From the NCBI GenBank assembly GCA_958295785.1, contig OY282377.1, positions 3,660,896 to 3,724,895 of the forward strand: a stretch of 64,000 bases of DNA. The letters are read 5' to 3'. Shown here piece after piece: positions 3,067-12,066 of the stretch; position 1 is the first letter of the stretch; every line of letters begins with the position of its first letter. The notes beneath the pieces are model-generated. The model was not told the origin of the DNA, did no database searches, and worked only from the letters and a program-made list of their open reading frames with translations. Made by a program: the position numbers and the translations under genes. The stretch comes from an uncultured Latescibacterota bacterium. GTDB lineage: Bacteria > Latescibacterota > UBA2968.

Positions 3067-5511
3067 TCAATGCGGCAAATAGTGTTCGTGCAGTTGCGTT
3101 TTGGCAACGCCATCTGCGATCAGGGAATCGATATGGTCGTCATCATCCCCCAATTCCCGCAGAATCTCCCGGGTGTGTGCGCCCTGTTTGGGGCATGCGG
3201 ACAGAAGTTGAATCGGCGCGTTTTTCAGACGCACATAAGCCGGCGGCGCGAGATCGACCGCACTGCCGACCGGGTGATCCACAAAGCGAACAATGGCAAT
3301 GGACCGCCCGTCATCCCAGGCGTTCAGATCGTCTGCGGACACCTCGTGCAAATACCTGCTGCGAATGTCCTCAAGCGAATCGATGCGGTGCCCGGCCAAC
3401 CCTGCATCGTTAAACAGTTTGACCCAATGGGCCACATCGCGTTGCGCGATCTTCGCTTCCAAAAATTTATCCGCACCCTCATCAGGCGCGTGTTCCAAGC
3501 CCGGGACGCGCCTCAATTTATCGACCTCATGGCACAACCCACCCACAAAGACCCAAGCATCCCGCGCGCGATACATGCGGTGCAAGGCGTGTTCGCCCAT
3601 CGCATCTTGCCCAGAGGGTTCATCGCCCGAGCACCCGCTTTGGCACGCATACATAAAGGGCGCCTGCACGAGTTGCCCGCCCTGCGCGAGCGATGTGGTG
3701 ACAAAATCGCCGCCATCGGGAACGCCGCTACGCCTGCGTTTGAGCAAGGCGAGCGCCGCGCCAAACGTCGCCGAATACCCCGTGATGTAGTCGATACAAG
3801 ACGCCCACCCGTGCAAAATCGGTTTCTCGCCCGCGCCGCCATAGCGCATTTGAATGCCGGTCGATCCCTGAAGCAGGGGATCAAAGCCCGGGCGATTCAT
3901 CCACGCCCCCGGGCGCGGGCCATTGAAAGCCGTCAGGTTGAGATAGACGATATCGGGCTTGCGCCTTTTGACCGCGTCGTAATCAATGCCCAAATTTTGG
4001 GCCACGCCGGGCCGGAAATTGTGGACGATCACATCGGCTGTTTCGACCAACTTCAAAAACGCGGCCTTGCCCGCCGCCTTTTTGAGATTTAGGATCATGC
4101 TGCGCTTGCCGGGGCTGACCTCTATCGGAAACCAACTGGAGACGCGCGGGCCAAAATAGGGTTCGGGCGGATCGATCTTGATGACCTCTGCGCCGTATTC
4201 CGCCAACGTGCGCGCACTGGCCGGGCCGGCCAACACATTGGACAAGTCCAAAACGCGAATGCCCTCGAGGATGGGCTTTGCCGGCACTGCTGCGACATTC
4301 TTCATGGGGCTGGGTTCAACGCATCCCTTGAACGGTCTTGACGGTTTGGGAATGGCGTAGTCCGCCGGGGTTTTGGAAAGCCATGTTTGCACGCCGAGTT
4401 GCCGCGTCGGGCCATATTCGGGATCATCCACCACGACAGTCAACGCCGCCTCGTCCGTCTCGGATTTGTGCAACCACTCCTGTGCGGTGCGCTGAATCGT
4501 GCAGGGCACCCCCGCAGCGGTCAAAACATTGACCCAGTGTTGCGCGGGTTCGCTTGCGAGCACGGCCTCAATTTTTTCGCGCACTTTGAGATTCCATTCT
4601 CTGGACAGATGGGATGAATCGGGAATGTTATTGGTCAGATGCAGGTTTTCATACACCGGCACATCGACCATGCCCTGGTCGATCAGATCGTCATACACCG
4701 CCAACGCTTTGACCAGTGATCGGCTGTTCCGCGCATGCCCGGCCGCGATGATGTAGAGCCATTGCCTATCGCCTGCGCGAAACGCGCCGCTAAACGGCGA
4801 CTCTGCGCCACCGCGTTGAGGGGTTTTTCGCGCCGCATTAGACATGCCGTATCGCGCGGGTTTTTCCGCCACCTCCAACATAATCACAGCCATCGCAGAC
4901 ATGGCCGCGCCCACCAACGAAACCTCGATCACATCGCCTCGCCCGGTTTTTTCGCGCGCGTACAGGGCGAGGGTCGCGGCGATGACCCCGTGAATCGCGC
5001 CATAAGTCGATCCCAATGGCATGGGCGTGTAAATGGGCGGCGCATCGGTCATTCGGCGTGCGTTTTGCAGATCGGTGTATTGACCGATTGCCGCGCTGAT
5101 AATGCCTTCAAATGCGCGAATCGACGCTTTTTCATCTGTGGCAGCAAAGCCCGGCAACGAGAGATAGACCAAGCCCGGGTTTCGCGCGGTCATATCTTCC
5201 GCGCCCAATCCCAACCGCTGCATCACGCCCGGGCGAAAATTTTCAATCACCACATCTGCCGATAGAACCAAATCCACAGCCCGAGCGCGATCATCCGCAT
5301 CTTTCAAATTTAGGGTAACGCGCTGTTTGCCCCGATTAAAAACCCCATTTGCAGGGGTATCCCAATCGGGCCTGCCCGGCCGATCCACTTTGATGACCTC
5401 GGCCCCCTGATCCGCGAGCAACATCCCGGCCAATGGCCCGGCAATATAATGCCCAAAATCAATGACGCGAATCCCGGTCAATGGCGCCTGTGTATCGCGT
5501 TTTCTGTTCAT
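3067..5511 (-). CDS. Tandem two-domain CaiB/BaiF (class III) CoA-transferase
   Basis: An 814-residue protein made of two complete CaiB/BaiF-type halves of about 400 residues. The first begins with GIRVIDFGHYIAGPLAG and the second (about residue 418) with GIRVLDLSNVLAGPASA; each continues with GAEVIK, an N-L-K segment, ENFRPGV or HNFRPGV and a YLSLPGF or YLNLTAF motif. Class III CoA-transferases move CoA between carboxylic acids (formyl-CoA/oxalate, carnitine, bile acids) through an aspartyl-CoA mixed anhydride. Single-domain family members are about 400 residues and form interlocked dimers, so the tandem form may be a covalent dimer. The ATG at 5511 has AAGGAG 7 bases upstream. Substrate cannot be told from sequence. 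Confidence 0.9.
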   Translation of the reverse strand: MNRKRDTQAPLTGIRVIDFGHYIAGPLAGMLLADQGAEVIKVDRPGRPDWDTPANGVFNRGKQRVTLNLKDADDRARAVDLVLSADVVIENFRPGVMQRLGLGAEDMTARNPGLVYLSLPGFAATDEKASIRAFEGIISAAIGQYTDLQNARRMTDAPPIYTPMPLGSTYGAIHGVIAATLALYAREKTGRGDVIEVSLVGAAMSAMAVIMLEVAEKPARYGMSNAARKTPQRGGAESPFSGAFRAGDRQWLYIIAAGHARNSRSLVKALAVYDDLIDQGMVDVPVYENLHLTNNIPDSSHLSREWNLKVREKIEAVLASEPAQHWVNVLTAAGVPCTIQRTAQEWLHKSETDEAALTVVVDDPEYGPTRQLGVQTWLSKTPADYAIPKPSRPFKGCVEPSPMKNVAAVPAKPILEGIRVLDLSNVLAGPASARTLAEYGAEVIKIDPPEPYFGPRVSSWFPIEVSPGKRSMILNLKKAAGKAAFLKLVETADVIVHNFRPGVAQNLGIDYDAVKRRKPDIVYLNLTAFNGPRPGAWMNRPGFDPLLQGSTGIQMRYGGAGEKPILHGWASCIDYITGYSATFGAALALLKRRRSGVPDGGDFVTTSLAQGGQLVQAPFMYACQSGCSGDEPSGQDAMGEHALHRMYRARDAWVFVGGLCHEVDKLRRVPGLEHAPDEGADKFLEAKIAQRDVAHWVKLFNDAGLAGHRIDSLEDIRSRYLHEVSADDLNAWDDGRSIAIVRFVDHPVGSAVDLAPPAYVRLKNAPIQLLSACPKQGAHTREILRELGDDDDHIDSLIADGVAKTQLHEHYLPH

Positions 5512-5770
5512 CCTCTGTCTCCTTTTGGGGTTTTTCGCGCCCCCGTATAATAATACGTTTGGGTTGGGGTAGGTAAAAAAAACGATCAGAATTGAAGGAT
5601 TTGAGGATGAGACGCAATCTTTCTATCCGCGCCTCTCTCCACTGCTTTCATAAAGTCTTGCCTAAAATGGCGTGACTGTTTATTTTTTTTGCAAAAGGAT
5701 CCAAGCGTGCATAACAGCTTTTGCATCTAAAAGGAGACTTCCCTTTTACCACTGACTCAAGGAGTTTTTC
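5512..5770. other. Divergent intergenic region, CoA-transferase/pheS
   Basis: No gene seen here. On the minus strand a weak promoter (TTTACC, 16 bases, TATTAT near 5547-5577) could serve the CoA-transferase. For pheS an AAGGAG lies 6 bases before the TTG start at 5771. I see no T-box features (no conserved antiterminator bulge sequence) and no clear sigma-70 pair facing pheS. Confidence 0.4.
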
Positions 5771-7306
5771 TTGCTCGACCTCGCATCTCTCCACGCTCTC
5801 GAAATTCGCATTTTGCGCGCATACCAAAACAATGCCGAACAGTCCGATGCACAACTTCAACAGGGCATCGGCGAAGGGCAGGTGCGCCGTGCGGTCGAGT
5901 GGCTCATGTCCAAACATCTCCTCGAAGTTACTGCGGAAACCACGCGCACAACCGTTTCCCTGACGGAAGTGGGACGGGACTTTGCCTCGAAAGGCGCGAC
6001 GCCAGAAACCGCGCTTTTAGATCGGGCAGGCGCGGGGCCGGTGGCGATCAAAGACCTGCAAGCGGATCAACGCTTTGACAAAGGGGCTTGGGGCAGCGCG
6101 TTTGGCGGTCTAAAAAAAGACGGCATTATCGATCTCGACAAAGGGGATATTGTCATTGTCGATCCAGACCGCGCTTCCTTTTTTGGAAACCGGCTCATCC
6201 CAGAACTTTTCGCCCGATTTTCCGACTCAAATACCCACATCGAAATCGGCGAGTTTTCTCAAGAGATTGCCCAATACATTCAGGCCAACGCCCGCAAGCG
6301 CGGCAGTGGCAAAGCACCCCTGCGCTTGGATGAACGCACCGAGCGGGTTTATCGCCTCACAAAAGACGGGCGGCGCGTGCTCGTCGAAGTCCTCAAAGCC
6401 AATCTCACGGGCGATGAAATTTCTCGCCTCACGCCGGAGATGATCCAAAAAGGCACATGGCGCGGCGCGTCCTTTCGTCGATACGACCTCTCGATCAAAC
6501 CGCCGCGCGTGCTCATTGGCAAACACCATCCCTATCGGGCGTATCTCGACAGTGTGCGCCGCAGGCTGATGGCACTCGGGTTTGAGGAAATGAAAGGCTC
6601 GCTGGTCGAAACCGAATTTTGGAACATGGACGCCTTGTTCATGCCGCAGTTTCACGCCGCGCGCAATATTCACGATGCCTATTACGTGGCCGAACCCGCG
6701 CAAGCCAAACGCGCCGAAGAACCCCATTTCTCCAGCGTGGCAAGCGCACATGAAAGTGGCGGCGACACGGGGTCGCGCGGTTGGCGTTACAAATTCAATC
6801 CCGAGCAATCGCGCCGCCTCATCTTGCGAAGCCAAGGCACCGCGCTCTCGGCGCGCACCCTGGCGTCAAATCCCAATATCCCGGGCAAATACTTCGCCCT
6901 TGCGCGCTGCTTCCGTCCCGAAGATGTCGATGCCACGCACGCGGCGGACTTCACGCAGGCCGAGGGCATTGTTTTGGGGGAAAACATCAACTTTCGAAGC
7001 CTGCTCGGTTTGCTCGAGTTGTTTGCCCTAGAAATCGCGCAAGCCGAAGCCGTGCGCTATGTGCCCGACTATTTCCCCTTCACCGAACCCTCGGTCGAAT
7101 TGCAGGCCAAACACCCGGTTCTCGGCTGGATAGAACTCGGGGGCGCGGGCTTGTTCCGCCCGGAACTCACGCAACCCTTGGGCGTGGATGTCCCGGTCAT
7201 TGCGTGGGGCCTGGGCGTTGACCGCATGGCAATGGTCGCACTCGGCATCAGCGACATCCGCGACTTGTTCAGCACGGACCTCGATTTGCTCCGCAACACG
7301 CGGTAA
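5771..7306 (+). CDS. pheS: Phenylalanine-tRNA ligase alpha subunit, archaeal/eukaryotic type
   Basis: Catalytic subunit that charges tRNA-Phe with phenylalanine. At 511 residues it is much longer than the usual bacterial PheS (about 330-350): instead of a coiled-coil N-terminus it starts with about 180 residues of winged-helix-like repeats (LHALEIRILRAYQ; AVEWLMSKHLLEV), as in archaeal and cytosolic eukaryotic enzymes. Class II core: GFEEMKGSLVETEFWNMDAL, then motif 2 around RCFRPEDVDATHAADFTQAEG and motif 3 GLGVDRMAM near the end. The TTG start is supported by an AAGGAG 6 bases upstream and no competing ATG. It lies 17 bases before pheT, and both genes are of the same non-bacterial type, implying transfer of the pair. 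Confidence 0.95.
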   Translation: MLDLASLHALEIRILRAYQNNAEQSDAQLQQGIGEGQVRRAVEWLMSKHLLEVTAETTRTTVSLTEVGRDFASKGATPETALLDRAGAGPVAIKDLQADQRFDKGAWGSAFGGLKKDGIIDLDKGDIVIVDPDRASFFGNRLIPELFARFSDSNTHIEIGEFSQEIAQYIQANARKRGSGKAPLRLDERTERVYRLTKDGRRVLVEVLKANLTGDEISRLTPEMIQKGTWRGASFRRYDLSIKPPRVLIGKHHPYRAYLDSVRRRLMALGFEEMKGSLVETEFWNMDALFMPQFHAARNIHDAYYVAEPAQAKRAEEPHFSSVASAHESGGDTGSRGWRYKFNPEQSRRLILRSQGTALSARTLASNPNIPGKYFALARCFRPEDVDATHAADFTQAEGIVLGENINFRSLLGLLELFALEIAQAEAVRYVPDYFPFTEPSVELQAKHPVLGWIELGGAGLFRPELTQPLGVDVPVIAWGLGVDRMAMVALGISDIRDLFSTDLDLLRNTR

Positions 7307-7323
7307 TCGCACGGGAAAACACA

Positions 7324-9048
7324 ATGCCTAAAATCACCGTTGACAAACCCGACCTCGAACGCCTCGCGGGACAGGCGTATTCACTGGAGAGCCTGAGCGC
7401 GGCACTCGAAACCGCCAAGGCCGAAATTGACGCTGTAGAAGGCGATGCGCTCCGCATTCAACTCAAAGATACCAACCGCCCGGATCTCTGGTCCACAGAG
7501 GGCCTCGCGCGATTGCTCAAAAGCCACCGGGACAATGCTCCGCCCGATTATTCCTTTTTTCATCCACAGATAGGTCGCCATGCAGAGCGGGAGGTCATTG
7601 TCGATCCCGGTTTGCAACACATCCGCCCCTATATCGCCGCTTTTGCCTGCGAAGGCATTTCGATCGACGAAGCCGCGCTTAAAGCCCTCATCGAAGCACA
7701 GGAAAAACTCGCCGATGGGTATGGGCGCGGGCGCAGCGCAGTTGCCATTGGGATTTACGATGCGTCTGACATTGCATATCCCGTGCGCTACGACGCGGCC
7801 GATCCCGACGCGACGGCATTTGTCCCGCTCGAGTTTGAACGCGAAATGACCTTGCGGCAAATTTTGTCCGACCATCCCACGGGCAGGACGTATTCGCATC
7901 TCCTCGCCGGCAAAGATCGCTTTCCCCTAATCCGCGATTCGCGTTGCGAAGTGCTCTCAATGCCCCCTGTGATCAACAGCCAGACGTTGGGCCGCGTTGA
8001 AGTGGGCGACTCATTTTTATTTTGCGAAGCAACCGGGCCCGAACTCGATGCCATTCTCCTGTCGATGGCGATTATGGCCGCGAACATGGCGGACCGGGGC
8101 GGACGCATTCATCCCGTCACCACGCGCTATCCCTACGACACGCCGCACGGGCGCACCCTGACGTGTCCCTATGACCTCACCGCGCCCATGCAAGTCGATA
8201 TCCGCGAGATTTACAAAGTCGTGGGGTCGCACATTTCGACAGATCGGATTCAGATGGCACTCAACGCCCTGGGCTACCGCGATATTGCCGTCGGGAAACA
8301 GACCGTCAACGCGCGCCCGGCCCCGTATCGCGACGACATTTTGCACCCCATAGACATTGTCGAAGATGTGGTAATCGGCATAGGGTACGATACTTTTGAA
8401 CCGGAAATGCCCCGGGATTTTACCCTTGGCAAAGCCGCGCCAGAAGAAGATCTCGCGGATCGATTTCGCCAACTCATGGTCGGCAGTGGATTTCAAGAGG
8501 TCTTTTTGTCGATTCTCTGTTCTCGACAAGAACAGACCGAGGACATGAACGATCCCGACGCACAGATTGTTGCGATCTCAAATCCCATGTCCGAAAGCTA
8601 TAGTGCCATTCGCGCTTCCCTGCTGCCCGGTTTGCTCAAGACCGAAGCCGCGAGCCGTCGCGCGCGCTATCCGCACCGAATTTTTGAAGTGGGCGAGGTG
8701 GGCGTGCTCGCGCCCGACGAAAATTACGGCACGCGCACAGACATTCATCTTTGCGCCCTTGAAGCGAGCGACGAGGCCAATTTGTCCGGCATTCAAAGCT
8801 ATCTCGAGGTTTTGGCCTATTACTTCAATTTTGACTACACCCTCGCGCCCATCGATCATCCCACCTTCTCGCCCGGGCGCAGTGGCGAGATCCGCATAGG
8901 CGAGCGTGTATATGGCCTTATCGGCGAAATTCATCCCATCGTTCTCGAAACATGGGGCATCAATTATCCCGTCAGTGCATTTGAGATTGACATTCTCATC
9001 GCAGATCGGATCGCGGATGAAAGGCGAAAAGGCGCGCAGTGTGTGTAG
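7324..9048 (+). CDS. pheT: Phenylalanine-tRNA ligase beta subunit, archaeal/eukaryotic type
   Basis: Beta subunit of the (alpha-beta)2 enzyme, needed for tRNA binding and editing of mischarged Tyr-tRNA-Phe. It has 574 residues, close to the archaeal length and far below the roughly 800 of bacterial PheT; it lacks the N-terminal tRNA-binding (EMAP-like) and C-terminal anticodon-binding (FDX-ACB) domains. Seen: MPKITVDKPDLERLAG start, DTNRPDLWSTEGLARLLK, a B3/B4-like editing region (about residues 90-280), B5-like segment and a degenerate class II core (GSGFQEVFLSILC; NPMSESYSAIRASLLPGLL). The last residues and stop codon (from about DRIADERRKG) come from a dispersed repeat that starts inside the gene, so the natural C-terminus was probably altered. 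Confidence 0.95.
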   Translation: MPKITVDKPDLERLAGQAYSLESLSAALETAKAEIDAVEGDALRIQLKDTNRPDLWSTEGLARLLKSHRDNAPPDYSFFHPQIGRHAEREVIVDPGLQHIRPYIAAFACEGISIDEAALKALIEAQEKLADGYGRGRSAVAIGIYDASDIAYPVRYDAADPDATAFVPLEFEREMTLRQILSDHPTGRTYSHLLAGKDRFPLIRDSRCEVLSMPPVINSQTLGRVEVGDSFLFCEATGPELDAILLSMAIMAANMADRGGRIHPVTTRYPYDTPHGRTLTCPYDLTAPMQVDIREIYKVVGSHISTDRIQMALNALGYRDIAVGKQTVNARPAPYRDDILHPIDIVEDVVIGIGYDTFEPEMPRDFTLGKAAPEEDLADRFRQLMVGSGFQEVFLSILCSRQEQTEDMNDPDAQIVAISNPMSESYSAIRASLLPGLLKTEAASRRARYPHRIFEVGEVGVLAPDENYGTRTDIHLCALEASDEANLSGIQSYLEVLAYYFNFDYTLAPIDHPTFSPGRSGEIRIGERVYGLIGEIHPIVLETWGINYPVSAFEIDILIADRIADERRKGAQCV

Positions 9049-9146: not shown

Positions 9147-12005
9147 TTAAAACCGAACCGTCAGGCCGCCTGAAAGCATGCGTCCAATCAGGGGCGCGCC
9201 GACAAAGGATCGGTATTTCTTGTTCAGCAAATTGCTGGCTTCCGCGGTCAATATGAGTTTGAAGCGATCATTTGAAAGAGGCAATTGGTAGGAAGAGTTC
9301 AAATCCACAAGGGTATAAGAATCCACGGGCCCCATATAAACCCCCGAATTCATGGGGAAAGAACCGCGATAGCGCAATTTTCCGCCAATCGAGAGCGGCG
9401 TATTGGGCAACTTGCACTCGGCGCCGATGTTAAACTTGTGCCGGGGCGCGTTGAGGGCAATGTCGCCAATATTGTCCAAATTGGGAAACAGGTCCTCGCT
9501 GACATAGGAGTAATTGCCCATAAAAGTCCAAGTTTCATTGGGATAATACGCAAATGAGAGATCGGCGCCATAGAGGGTGATGCGGCCAAAATTACGATAC
9601 GTCACCATCACCGCAATCGGGTCTGATGCCTGCTCGGCAGAGATGGTGCCAAAGGGAATCTGCACCGCATTGGACACGAACAACTGCGTCAATTCATCTA
9701 TGCCCGTCCCATTGCCATTGCCGACCAATCCCAAATCTGGCTGATTGAGTTGATCCAAAAGCCCCACGGCTATGGCGAGACTCGCATTGGTAGGGTCGCT
9801 CAGGGCCTCTTCAAGCGCCGCGGTGAGTGCGGTGCTCAAAGGCCCGGCTTCGAGAAACACATTGGGCGTTTCAATCCGCAACGGGCCGACAAAATTTTTG
9901 ATTTGGGTGCGATAGACATCCGCCGATAAAATCAGTTTGTTTTTCACAATGCCTTTGTATCCCACTTCAAAGGTTTCCGTGATGGTCGATCTGATTTTTT
10001 TTATGTCTGTAACCGCGTTGGCAGGATCGGCGATGGGATCGAAAGCGAGCGTTCCCGTATTCAGGGTCGCAACGCTGTTTTGCAAGCCCTGCAGGGTCTG
10101 TGGAACAAGGCCGGGAAAATCGGCGACCAGTTGTGCGGCTACCCCAGCGGCTTGGTCGCGGGGCAGGCCGAGCCGCTCCGCGAGGAGGTTTGTCGCCAAA
10201 GGCTCGAGTTGTGGCAAAAGTTGGCTCAGAATCGCGCCGCGCGCTGCCCCCCACATCATATTGGTGGCCTGCGGATCGTGCATGGCAAAATAGTGATCTG
10301 CTGACACCCCCGCCAAGGGCGCGAAAGACGACCGAAACATGGGCAGGCCATTTTCGCCTTGCCGAAACGTGAACCCGCCGGCCGTGCCCTGTGCGCGAAT
10401 ATCAACTGCGGGATTAAAGCCCAATAGCGCGCTGAATTGCCCCAGGCCATAAACGTCGGGAATGCCGACCCGATCCAAAAACAAGTTGGAGGACGAAGGC
10501 GTGTCAAATGCGCGGTTATAGGTGAATCGCAGGGTGTTTTCCAGCGAGGGTTTGACCACCAGCGCGGCGCGGGGCGAAAAAACCGGTTTCTCAATGTGGT
10601 TGTGCTTGTCGATGCGCCCGGCCAACACCACTTCAATTTGATCGGTCAGATTCGTCTCGCTTTGCAGGTAAAGCCCAAACTCGTTGATGTTATCCCTGTC
10701 TTCGTTGAAACCATTGACCGTGCCCTCTGTCTGAGGGCGGGTTCGCAGCACATCTACGCCATAAGCAAAGTGTTGTTTTTTCCACAGACTCGCGCTGTGT
10801 TGCAGTTGAAAGACCATCAAATACGACTTATCCACAATTTGGTCGTCTGTGATGAGCAACTTCGTATCGCCCGCATCGCTCGTGTTGTAAAAAATTTGTG
10901 CAAACCACCCGCGATAGAGCATCCGCCCTTGCAGAAAATTATACGTCCAATCTTTGGCCTGACCCGCGCCCAATCCCGTCAGTTCAATGTTGCTCGTACT
11001 CGTATAGCCCGCGGATCCGATCAGCGTCAACTCATCTGTGGGCCGAAAGTCGAGCCTGATTTCCCCAATTGTGCGCTCGCTATTGTAATTGCGCGGATTA
11101 ACCCCGTTGCGGGCATTCACCTCTAAGGAATCCACGTATTCCCAATCGTGACCTGCAAAATACCCACCCGAAACTTTGATCCCCACTTTGTCATTAAAAC
11201 TGCTGGCGTGGCGCAAAGACACTTTTCGCAAACTGCGCTCGCCGCCCGATATGGAAACCGTGTTGCCTTCTGACCCAAAGGGCGAGCGGGTGATAATGTG
11301 CATCACGCCTTGGGCACTGTTGGGACCATAAAGCGCGGATCCAGGCCCCAAAACCACCTCAATGCGCTCGATATCGTCGCCGGTCACCGGTATCAGATGA
11401 TAGGCGTTGAGACGCAAAGACGGGATGCGGGCAATGCGGTTATCGACCAGCGTGAGCAAGGCGCCGGAAAATACATTGTTGAACCCCCGAACCACCATAT
11501 TGCCCTGCGAAATGCCGGTTTGGGAATAATCCACGCCGGGTAGGGCTTTGACGTGCTCGGTGACAGACAACACCTGTCGATCTCTGATTTCAGCCGCATC
11601 GACCATTGAAATTGACGCCGGCGCATCCAGGGCTTTTTCGCGTTTGCGCGATGCCGACACCACGACTTGTTGACCGACCAGCGATACAGTAGTCAAAATA
11701 AAATCTCGCGTCGTGCGTTCGCCCGCCCGAATTTCCACATCGAGAACGGTGCGCGTTTCATACCCAATATAGCTGATGGTGAGTTCGTAAACCCCCGGCG
11801 GCAACTGGTCGATGCGGTAAAGACCCCGTGCATCTGTAGCCGCGCCTCGCCTGCCCTCAATGGCCGGTCCTTTGACCACAATATTGGCGTCGAACACCGC
11901 CTCTCCGGTCTTATCTCCCACTCTGCCCGTCAAACTGCCCAAATCCTGGGCCGCAACCGAACACGCACTCCCCATAACCACCAAAAAACACCACAATGCA
12001 CGCAT
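9147..12005 (-). CDS. TonB-dependent outer-membrane receptor with N-terminal carboxypeptidase-regulatory-like domain
   Basis: A 952-residue receptor for TonB-powered uptake across the outer membrane. Order: signal peptide (MRALWCFLVVMGSACSVAAQ); a CarboxypepD_reg-like beta-sandwich (LGSLTGRVGDKTGEAV to IGYETRTVLDVEI, about residues 20-95); the plug (ASRKREKALDAPASISMV, then VVRGFNNVFSGALLTLVDN and VLGPGSALYGPNSAQGV); a long beta-barrel ending in the outer-membrane signature SGGLTVRF with a terminal Phe. The ATG at 12005 is chosen because GGAGG lies 5 bases upstream and the signal peptide starts there. The ligand is unknown; no siderophore or vitamin gene is adjacent. The neighbouring gene is a purine permease, but the two appear to have separate promoters. 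Confidence 0.93.
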   Translation of the reverse strand: MRALWCFLVVMGSACSVAAQDLGSLTGRVGDKTGEAVFDANIVVKGPAIEGRRGAATDARGLYRIDQLPPGVYELTISYIGYETRTVLDVEIRAGERTTRDFILTTVSLVGQQVVVSASRKREKALDAPASISMVDAAEIRDRQVLSVTEHVKALPGVDYSQTGISQGNMVVRGFNNVFSGALLTLVDNRIARIPSLRLNAYHLIPVTGDDIERIEVVLGPGSALYGPNSAQGVMHIITRSPFGSEGNTVSISGGERSLRKVSLRHASSFNDKVGIKVSGGYFAGHDWEYVDSLEVNARNGVNPRNYNSERTIGEIRLDFRPTDELTLIGSAGYTSTSNIELTGLGAGQAKDWTYNFLQGRMLYRGWFAQIFYNTSDAGDTKLLITDDQIVDKSYLMVFQLQHSASLWKKQHFAYGVDVLRTRPQTEGTVNGFNEDRDNINEFGLYLQSETNLTDQIEVVLAGRIDKHNHIEKPVFSPRAALVVKPSLENTLRFTYNRAFDTPSSSNLFLDRVGIPDVYGLGQFSALLGFNPAVDIRAQGTAGGFTFRQGENGLPMFRSSFAPLAGVSADHYFAMHDPQATNMMWGAARGAILSQLLPQLEPLATNLLAERLGLPRDQAAGVAAQLVADFPGLVPQTLQGLQNSVATLNTGTLAFDPIADPANAVTDIKKIRSTITETFEVGYKGIVKNKLILSADVYRTQIKNFVGPLRIETPNVFLEAGPLSTALTAALEEALSDPTNASLAIAVGLLDQLNQPDLGLVGNGNGTGIDELTQLFVSNAVQIPFGTISAEQASDPIAVMVTYRNFGRITLYGADLSFAYYPNETWTFMGNYSYVSEDLFPNLDNIGDIALNAPRHKFNIGAECKLPNTPLSIGGKLRYRGSFPMNSGVYMGPVDSYTLVDLNSSYQLPLSNDRFKLILTAEASNLLNKKYRSFVGAPLIGRMLSGGLTVRF

Positions 12006-12066
12006 AAAATCCTCCGTGAAGTCGCCTACGAACACGCCGTTTAACAGCCGTCATTCCGTTGGGTTA

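Follow-up and report, generated by a model that had tools for sequence, protein, structure and literature searches.

An archaeal-type phenylalanyl-tRNA synthetase gene pair in an order of Latescibacterota, an emptied rplT locus and phenylalanine T-box leaders in relatives

How does a bacterium come to depend on a phenylalanyl-tRNA synthetase (PheRS) of the archaeal type, and what became of its bacterial enzyme? The question is raised by a gene pair in a window of 64,000 nucleotides, the whole stretch of DNA analysed here, from an uncultured Latescibacterota bacterium. Profiles and fold identify the two genes as pheS (5771..7306, +; TTG start), encoding an archaeal/eukaryotic-type alpha subunit of 511 aa, and pheT (7324..9048, +; ATG start), encoding an archaeal-type beta subunit of 574 aa, both on one strand with a gap of 17 bases. 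A ribosome-binding site, AAGGAG (5759..5764, +), lies 6 bases 5' of the pheS start codon, and its GGAG is kept when the leader is aligned with those of five relatives. Opposite-strand ORFs flank the pair on both sides: a double-length CaiB/BaiF-like CoA-transferase ORF 5' of it (3067-5511, −; 814 aa, start 5511) and a TonB-receptor-like ORF 3' of it (9147-12035, −; 962 aa).

The sequence-only reading of this DNA had assigned both subunits to the archaeal type, and profile and fold comparisons bear this out. PheS scored 545.8 bits against NF003210 (PRK04172) versus 337 against the general pheS model, and PheT scored 477 bits against TIGR00471 (pheT_arch; NCBIfam cut-off 283) versus 119 against TIGR00472 (pheT_bact; cut-off 403). 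The class II catalytic core of PheS (PF01409; residues 238-509, 6482..7297, +) was located by profile, and its Phe-pocket segment FPFTEPS and C-terminal motif region are kept in the alignment. An N-terminal extension with winged helices is a feature of the archaeal/eukaryotic alpha subunit. The ORF has exactly the 511 codons originally read, and the winged-helix reading of its N-terminus holds because residues 1-209 (5771..6397, +) are predicted by AlphaFold2, at fair to good confidence (pLDDT 71-94 by block) and with the matching order of secondary structure, to form three helix-helix-helix-wing units. The PheS model as a whole has a mean pLDDT of 66, its catalytic half being poor, and the PheT model is good (90). 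In Foldseek searches, the top match of the PheS model was the alpha subunit of human 3l4g, and the PheT model matched the 3l4g beta subunit and Pyrococcus 2cxi (for 2cxi, target TM 0.94, 1.6 A).

PheT, likewise exactly 574 residues long, had been described as devoid of the EMAP-like and FDX-ACB domains, and a domain search found neither tRNA_bind (EMAP-like) nor FDX-ACB in it even at E<=5; as a control, the same search recovered tRNA_bind, B3/4, B5, CLM and FDX-ACB from bacterial PheT encoded in a sister genome. Profiles placed the B5 domain (PF03484; residues 290-355, 8191..8388, +) and the catalytic-like CLM domain (PF17759; residues 367-557, 8422..8994, +), with no FDX-ACB after the latter. 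The B3/4 editing domain (residues about 91-239, 7594..8040, +), for which the PF03483 profile gave no match, was placed by alignment to Pyrococcus 2cxi and LRRC47 and by fold. L202, S211, D234 and T236 of P. horikoshii PheT, which we take to be editing-site residues, align with I203, S212, E235 and T237 of the window protein; human PheT also has E at the third of these positions. With an alpha subunit of ~500 aa, a beta subunit within 550-600 aa and kept catalytic and editing residues, the pair can, by its sequence, be classed as PheRS-A (archaeal/eukaryotic type). It has none of the marks of bacterial PheST, namely a PheT of ~800 aa, tRNA_bind plus FDX-ACB, and the rplT-pheS-pheT context.

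The window genome is a single contig of 5,660,449 bases, 99.3% complete, and searches with the PF01409 and B5 profiles, which find their targets in all 14 control genomes, detected one PheS and one PheT in it. A second, bacterial-type pheST, the search for which had been proposed as a check, is absent from this genome: the only extra PF01409 match (C1:5607911) is weak and was rejected as PheS, its ORF being hisS-like. Since this is the sole pair in the genome and PheRS is essential, the archaeal-type pair must, by that reasoning, perform all Phe-tRNA charging in the window bacterium. The relatives are mostly metagenome assemblies, so that a foreign fragment introduced by contamination or mis-assembly has to be considered, but we judge its chance to be negligible. 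The pair lies on a single chromosome contig; another genome of the order (G008) is likewise a single-contig chromosome with the same pair; the pairs of independently assembled relatives are diverged yet related in sequence; and the bacterial pair is missing from all fetched native loci of the order.

The closest named relatives, at 81-83% PheT identity, are MAGs titled Candidatus Latescibacterota or Gemmatimonadota. We surveyed 64 genomes of the phylum with profiles, 21 of the window's order and 43 others. Of the 21, 20 carry archaeal-type PheT, 18 of them scoring over the cut-off and two being split by contig ends. The 43 gave no archaeal-type PheT; almost all of them match just the C-terminal part common to ordinary bacterial PheT, mostly in frames of ~800 codons. 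In the remaining order member, G014 (genus g5 of the window's family), neither PheT type was detected, yet rplT-zapB-zapA is there; its assembly comprises 930 contigs, and the pair is probably missing through an absent contig.

The native locus indicates what was lost. In family f4 it reads rplT-pheS-pheT-zapB-zapA-rny-ymdB-xseA, with pheS directly after rplT in 11/11 fetched loci, and the sister family f3 also keeps rplT-pheS-pheT. All 19 loci fetched from the window's order instead read rplT-zapB-zapA without pheS, followed by rny where examined; the neighbours infC, rplT, zapB, zapA, rny and xseA are kept without pheST. In the window genome, rplT of the emptied locus is at C1:1192084, and the distance to the window pheST is 2.5 Mb. 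In three genomes of family f2 (G015, G017 and G018), the archaeal-type pheST and the emptied rplT locus are ~21 kb apart and lie on opposite strands. Because f3 and f4 keep rplT-pheS-pheT where the order's loci are empty, the class ancestor most likely had bacterial pheST, which was then deleted with its neighbours undisturbed. The claim that the native operon was replaced is thus upheld. The reverse course, with the phylum starting from the archaeal type and its other orders changing over to bacterial pheST, has nothing in its favour beyond parsimony being reversible in principle, and it appears highly improbable, given that the archaeal type is limited to one order of the phylum and that rplT-pheS-pheT is kept in f3, in f4 and in the unrelated Bacterium UASB270, while the window's order has the same neighbours without pheST.

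Bacterium UASB270 (DF820463.1) carries both forms. Its bacterial pheS-pheT, which scores 829.5 bits against pheT_bact, stands in the rplT context, and an archaeal-type pair lies within about 20 kb of it on the same contig, both pairs being intact; the three further genomes sampled from its phylum have just the bacterial form. This is what a replacement intermediate would look like.

The tRNA appears to have stayed. The tRNA-Phe of the order is of the ordinary bacterial type, with a GAA anticodon and A73-CCA, and in several members its 30-base core is identical to that of some f4 genomes, whose PheRS is bacterial. We found no sign, comparing the order with f4, that tRNA-Phe was replaced along with the enzyme; the enzyme was swapped, and not the tRNA.

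Where the pair came from was addressed by trees of both subunits, separately and concatenated, with human, Candida and Plasmodium sequences as outgroup and a site-mixture model for PheT. The archaeal sampling of these trees consists of one Pyrococcus PheT half-chain from the PDB and zero archaeal PheS. The window's order forms a clade in both subunits (support 100/99 or better), and this phylogeny, which the sequence-only reading had called for, places the pair among the archaeal-type bacterial copies, with the one archaeal half PheT falling outside all of them (96/97). Forcing the order to join Pyrococcus was rejected, if marginally (p-AU 0.02). Branching among the bacterial archaeal-type clades is poorly supported in the PheS, PheT and concatenated trees. 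UASB270 as the sister of the order was proposed by the PheS tree (98/94) but gained no support in the PheT or concatenated trees. Among the best 80 matches of the contig scan, every title is bacterial and none archaeal; archaeal PheRS was also sought in plasmid records, which gave bacterial PheT fragments only, and in viral contigs, which gave none.

The replacement by transfer that had been proposed thus stands, with a refinement as to source. The last donor is more likely bacterial because the window pair groups with bacterial copies and not with Pyrococcus, so that the sequences point to a bacterial relay, the immediate donor probably being another bacterium with the archaeal type; our confidence in this is moderate because the archaeal sampling is one half-protein. 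An archaeal origin in the last instance would follow from the enzyme type and the literature, the trees holding one archaeal half-sequence. Direct transfer from an archaeon to the order ancestor, independent of the transfers to Spirochaetes and Nitrospirota, would agree with the enzyme type, with the weakly supported deep order among the bacterial clades and with the sampling of one archaeal half PheT and zero archaeal PheS, but it is unlikely in view of the position of Pyrococcus, the rejected joining and the scan titles, and because T-boxes, discussed below, are known from bacteria (PMC2494555).

Bacterial carriers of the archaeal type are common. The sequence-only reading had spoken of spirochaetes and a few other bacteria; the spirochaetes are indeed carriers, whereas "a few" understates the range, which takes in some genomes of Spirochaetota, Myxococcota and WOR-3, among others, and 76 of 118 sampled Nitrospirota genomes with archaeal-type PheT over the cut-off. 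The Nitrospirota scores fall into two bands (about 445-530 and 313-393 bits), and four low-band PheT make up a separate clade with long branches. A literature search returned nothing on archaeal-type PheRS of the window's order or of Nitrospirota, which is not proof of absence. In Nitrospirota and Latescibacterota, the use of pheT as a phylogenetic marker brings together two divergent forms.

The leaders of the relatives' genes add a regulatory element. Aligned leaders of the window's genus contain AGGGTGGTACCGCG and then a terminator 5' of pheS, and five of them matched the T-box family RF00230 of Rfam at 104-109 bits. Across the phylum, T-boxes were found in 17 genomes, all in the window's order and one in each, and none outside the order. 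Eight of the 17 score above the Rfam gathering cut-off of 93 and nine at 65-88 bits, all with E<=1.2e-13. Each sits 46-265 nt before the archaeal-type pheS and is the only T-box found in its genome, so that, of the 18 genomes of the order in which the leader is visible, 17 have one. In 17/17, the triplet 6 nt before the conserved GAG reads UUC (Phe). The rule by which we read this specifier is supported by two other T-boxes, that of Nitrospira moscoviensis, where it yields CUC and the gene that follows is leuA-like, and that of Rectinema, where it yields ACC and the gene is thrS-like. The leaders match the class I T-box plan of Stem I, T-box core and terminator, with a specifier that fits the downstream gene; two terminators that we folded gave -21.8 and -29.1 kcal/mol (z near -4), and the tRNA-Phe sequences that we read end in ACCA (A73), to which the T-box UGGU can pair. 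One leader (L196, G010:C124:699-951; L038) has GGTAACGCG in place of GGTACCGCG as its T-box core, and its terminator is separated from pheS by ~100 additional GC-rich nt that contain inverted repeats; it is possibly a decaying T-box.

Four order genomes are without a T-box. In G001 and G005, a contig edge falls just before or inside pheT, and in G014 no pair was detected; the fourth is the window genome, the only order member in which the leader is complete but has no T-box. Its leader (5512..5770, +), between the divergent CoA-transferase ORF (start 5511, −) and pheS, had no Rfam match to E=5, and RF00230 found 0 T-boxes in the whole genome. A decayed T-box in this leader was considered and dropped, its likeness to the relatives' T-box leaders being not clearly above shuffles. 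Control of pheST in the window species would then be by something other than a T-box.

How the T-box and the pair came together is a question within the main reading. Reported T-boxes occur in few phyla and are abundant only in Firmicutes, and a 2008 survey reported none in spirochaetes (PMC2494555). The T-boxes noted above in N. moscoviensis (C1:804346-804581, before the leuA-like ORF) and in the spirochaete Rectinema are in each case the only one found. Rfam searches detected no T-box at 12 other bacterial archaeal-type pheS loci, and the T-box core pattern was absent from the loci fetched outside the window's order. We give nearly even chances to separate recruitment once the pair was in the order's ancestor, which is in keeping with the absence of a T-box at archaeal-type pheS in the other bacteria that we examined but finds no other T-box, in the order's genomes or the phylum, as a possible source. 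Alternatively, the Phe T-box and archaeal-type pheS-pheT may have moved as one cassette from an unsampled T-box-bearing bacterium, displacing the native operon, a possibility that we hold to be rather doubtful; were it true, an archaeal enzyme would have come under a bacterial tRNA-sensing RNA, and the window species would represent a natural loss of the switch. Literature searches found no paper on T-box riboswitches together with Gemmatimonadetes and, for T-box with Latescibacter, one paper, which is unrelated.

We consider it very probable that the pair is the sole working PheRS of this bacterium, transferred into an ancestor of its order where native pheST was deleted, and placed under a Phe T-box later lost in the window species. 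Of this reading, we have demonstrated the type of the pair, its being the sole copy, its order-wide distribution, the scar, the presence of the T-box with its Phe specifier and the unchanged tRNA; enzyme activity, T-box function and a bacterial donor we infer. The pair would act as an (alpha-beta)2 PheRS charging ordinary bacterial tRNA-Phe(GAA), with mischarged Tyr-tRNA-Phe presumably edited through B3/4 and the winged-helix extension of alpha contacting the tRNA in place of FDX-ACB. It would have entered the common ancestor of the order, most likely from a bacterium bearing the archaeal type, and taken over, the native pheS-pheT being cleanly deleted between rplT and zapB; by the split of the order's two families it would have stood behind the phenylalanine T-box leader. 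In the relatives, pairing of uncharged tRNA-Phe with UUC and with the T-box bulge would stabilise the antiterminator and so permit transcription of pheST, and the window species would have lost this leader later.

Cross-domain replacement of an essential synthetase is usually deduced from trees alone. Here, the course of events can be followed from the confinement to one order, the exact empty rplT-zapB site and the two-form UASB270. The T-box suggests a means of regulating an imported essential enzyme via its own substrate tRNA, and the single species without one offers a natural comparison. The kind of PheRS is already known; the T-box link to archaeal-type pheST is the new part and, with the clean scar and the two-form genome, adds the interest.

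Among known systems, the class I (transcriptional) T-box RF00230 is matched in the relatives' leaders by the Stem I specifier, AGGGTGGTACCGCG, a competing terminator hairpin and a U run, but these T-boxes precede an archaeal-type synthetase, and the window genome has none. Human and Candida cytosolic PheRS (3l4g, 8s8b), the PheRS-A of AARS Online (PMC11580382), share the N-terminal extension on alpha and the short beta without FDX-ACB, but are eukaryotic and a far outgroup in all trees. Nitrospirota PheRS, as in Nitrospira moscoviensis, is of the same type and pheS-pheT order, with 40-46% PheT identity, and is among the closest outside relatives of the window pair, but forms separate clades and had no T-box found at pheS. 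Archaeal-type PheRS has been published for Spirochaeta, Borrelia and Treponema (alpha 513-528, beta 514-573 aa; Andam and Gogarten 2011, PMC3191353). There too, both subunits are of the archaeal type and of similar size, as a shared derived trait of a bacterial lineage whose neighbours keep the bacterial form. The spirochaetes differ in belonging to another phylum, at 41-48% identity to the window pair, and those of their pheS loci that were examined yielded no T-box, whereas the window's order has the locus scar and, in most relatives, the Phe T-box.
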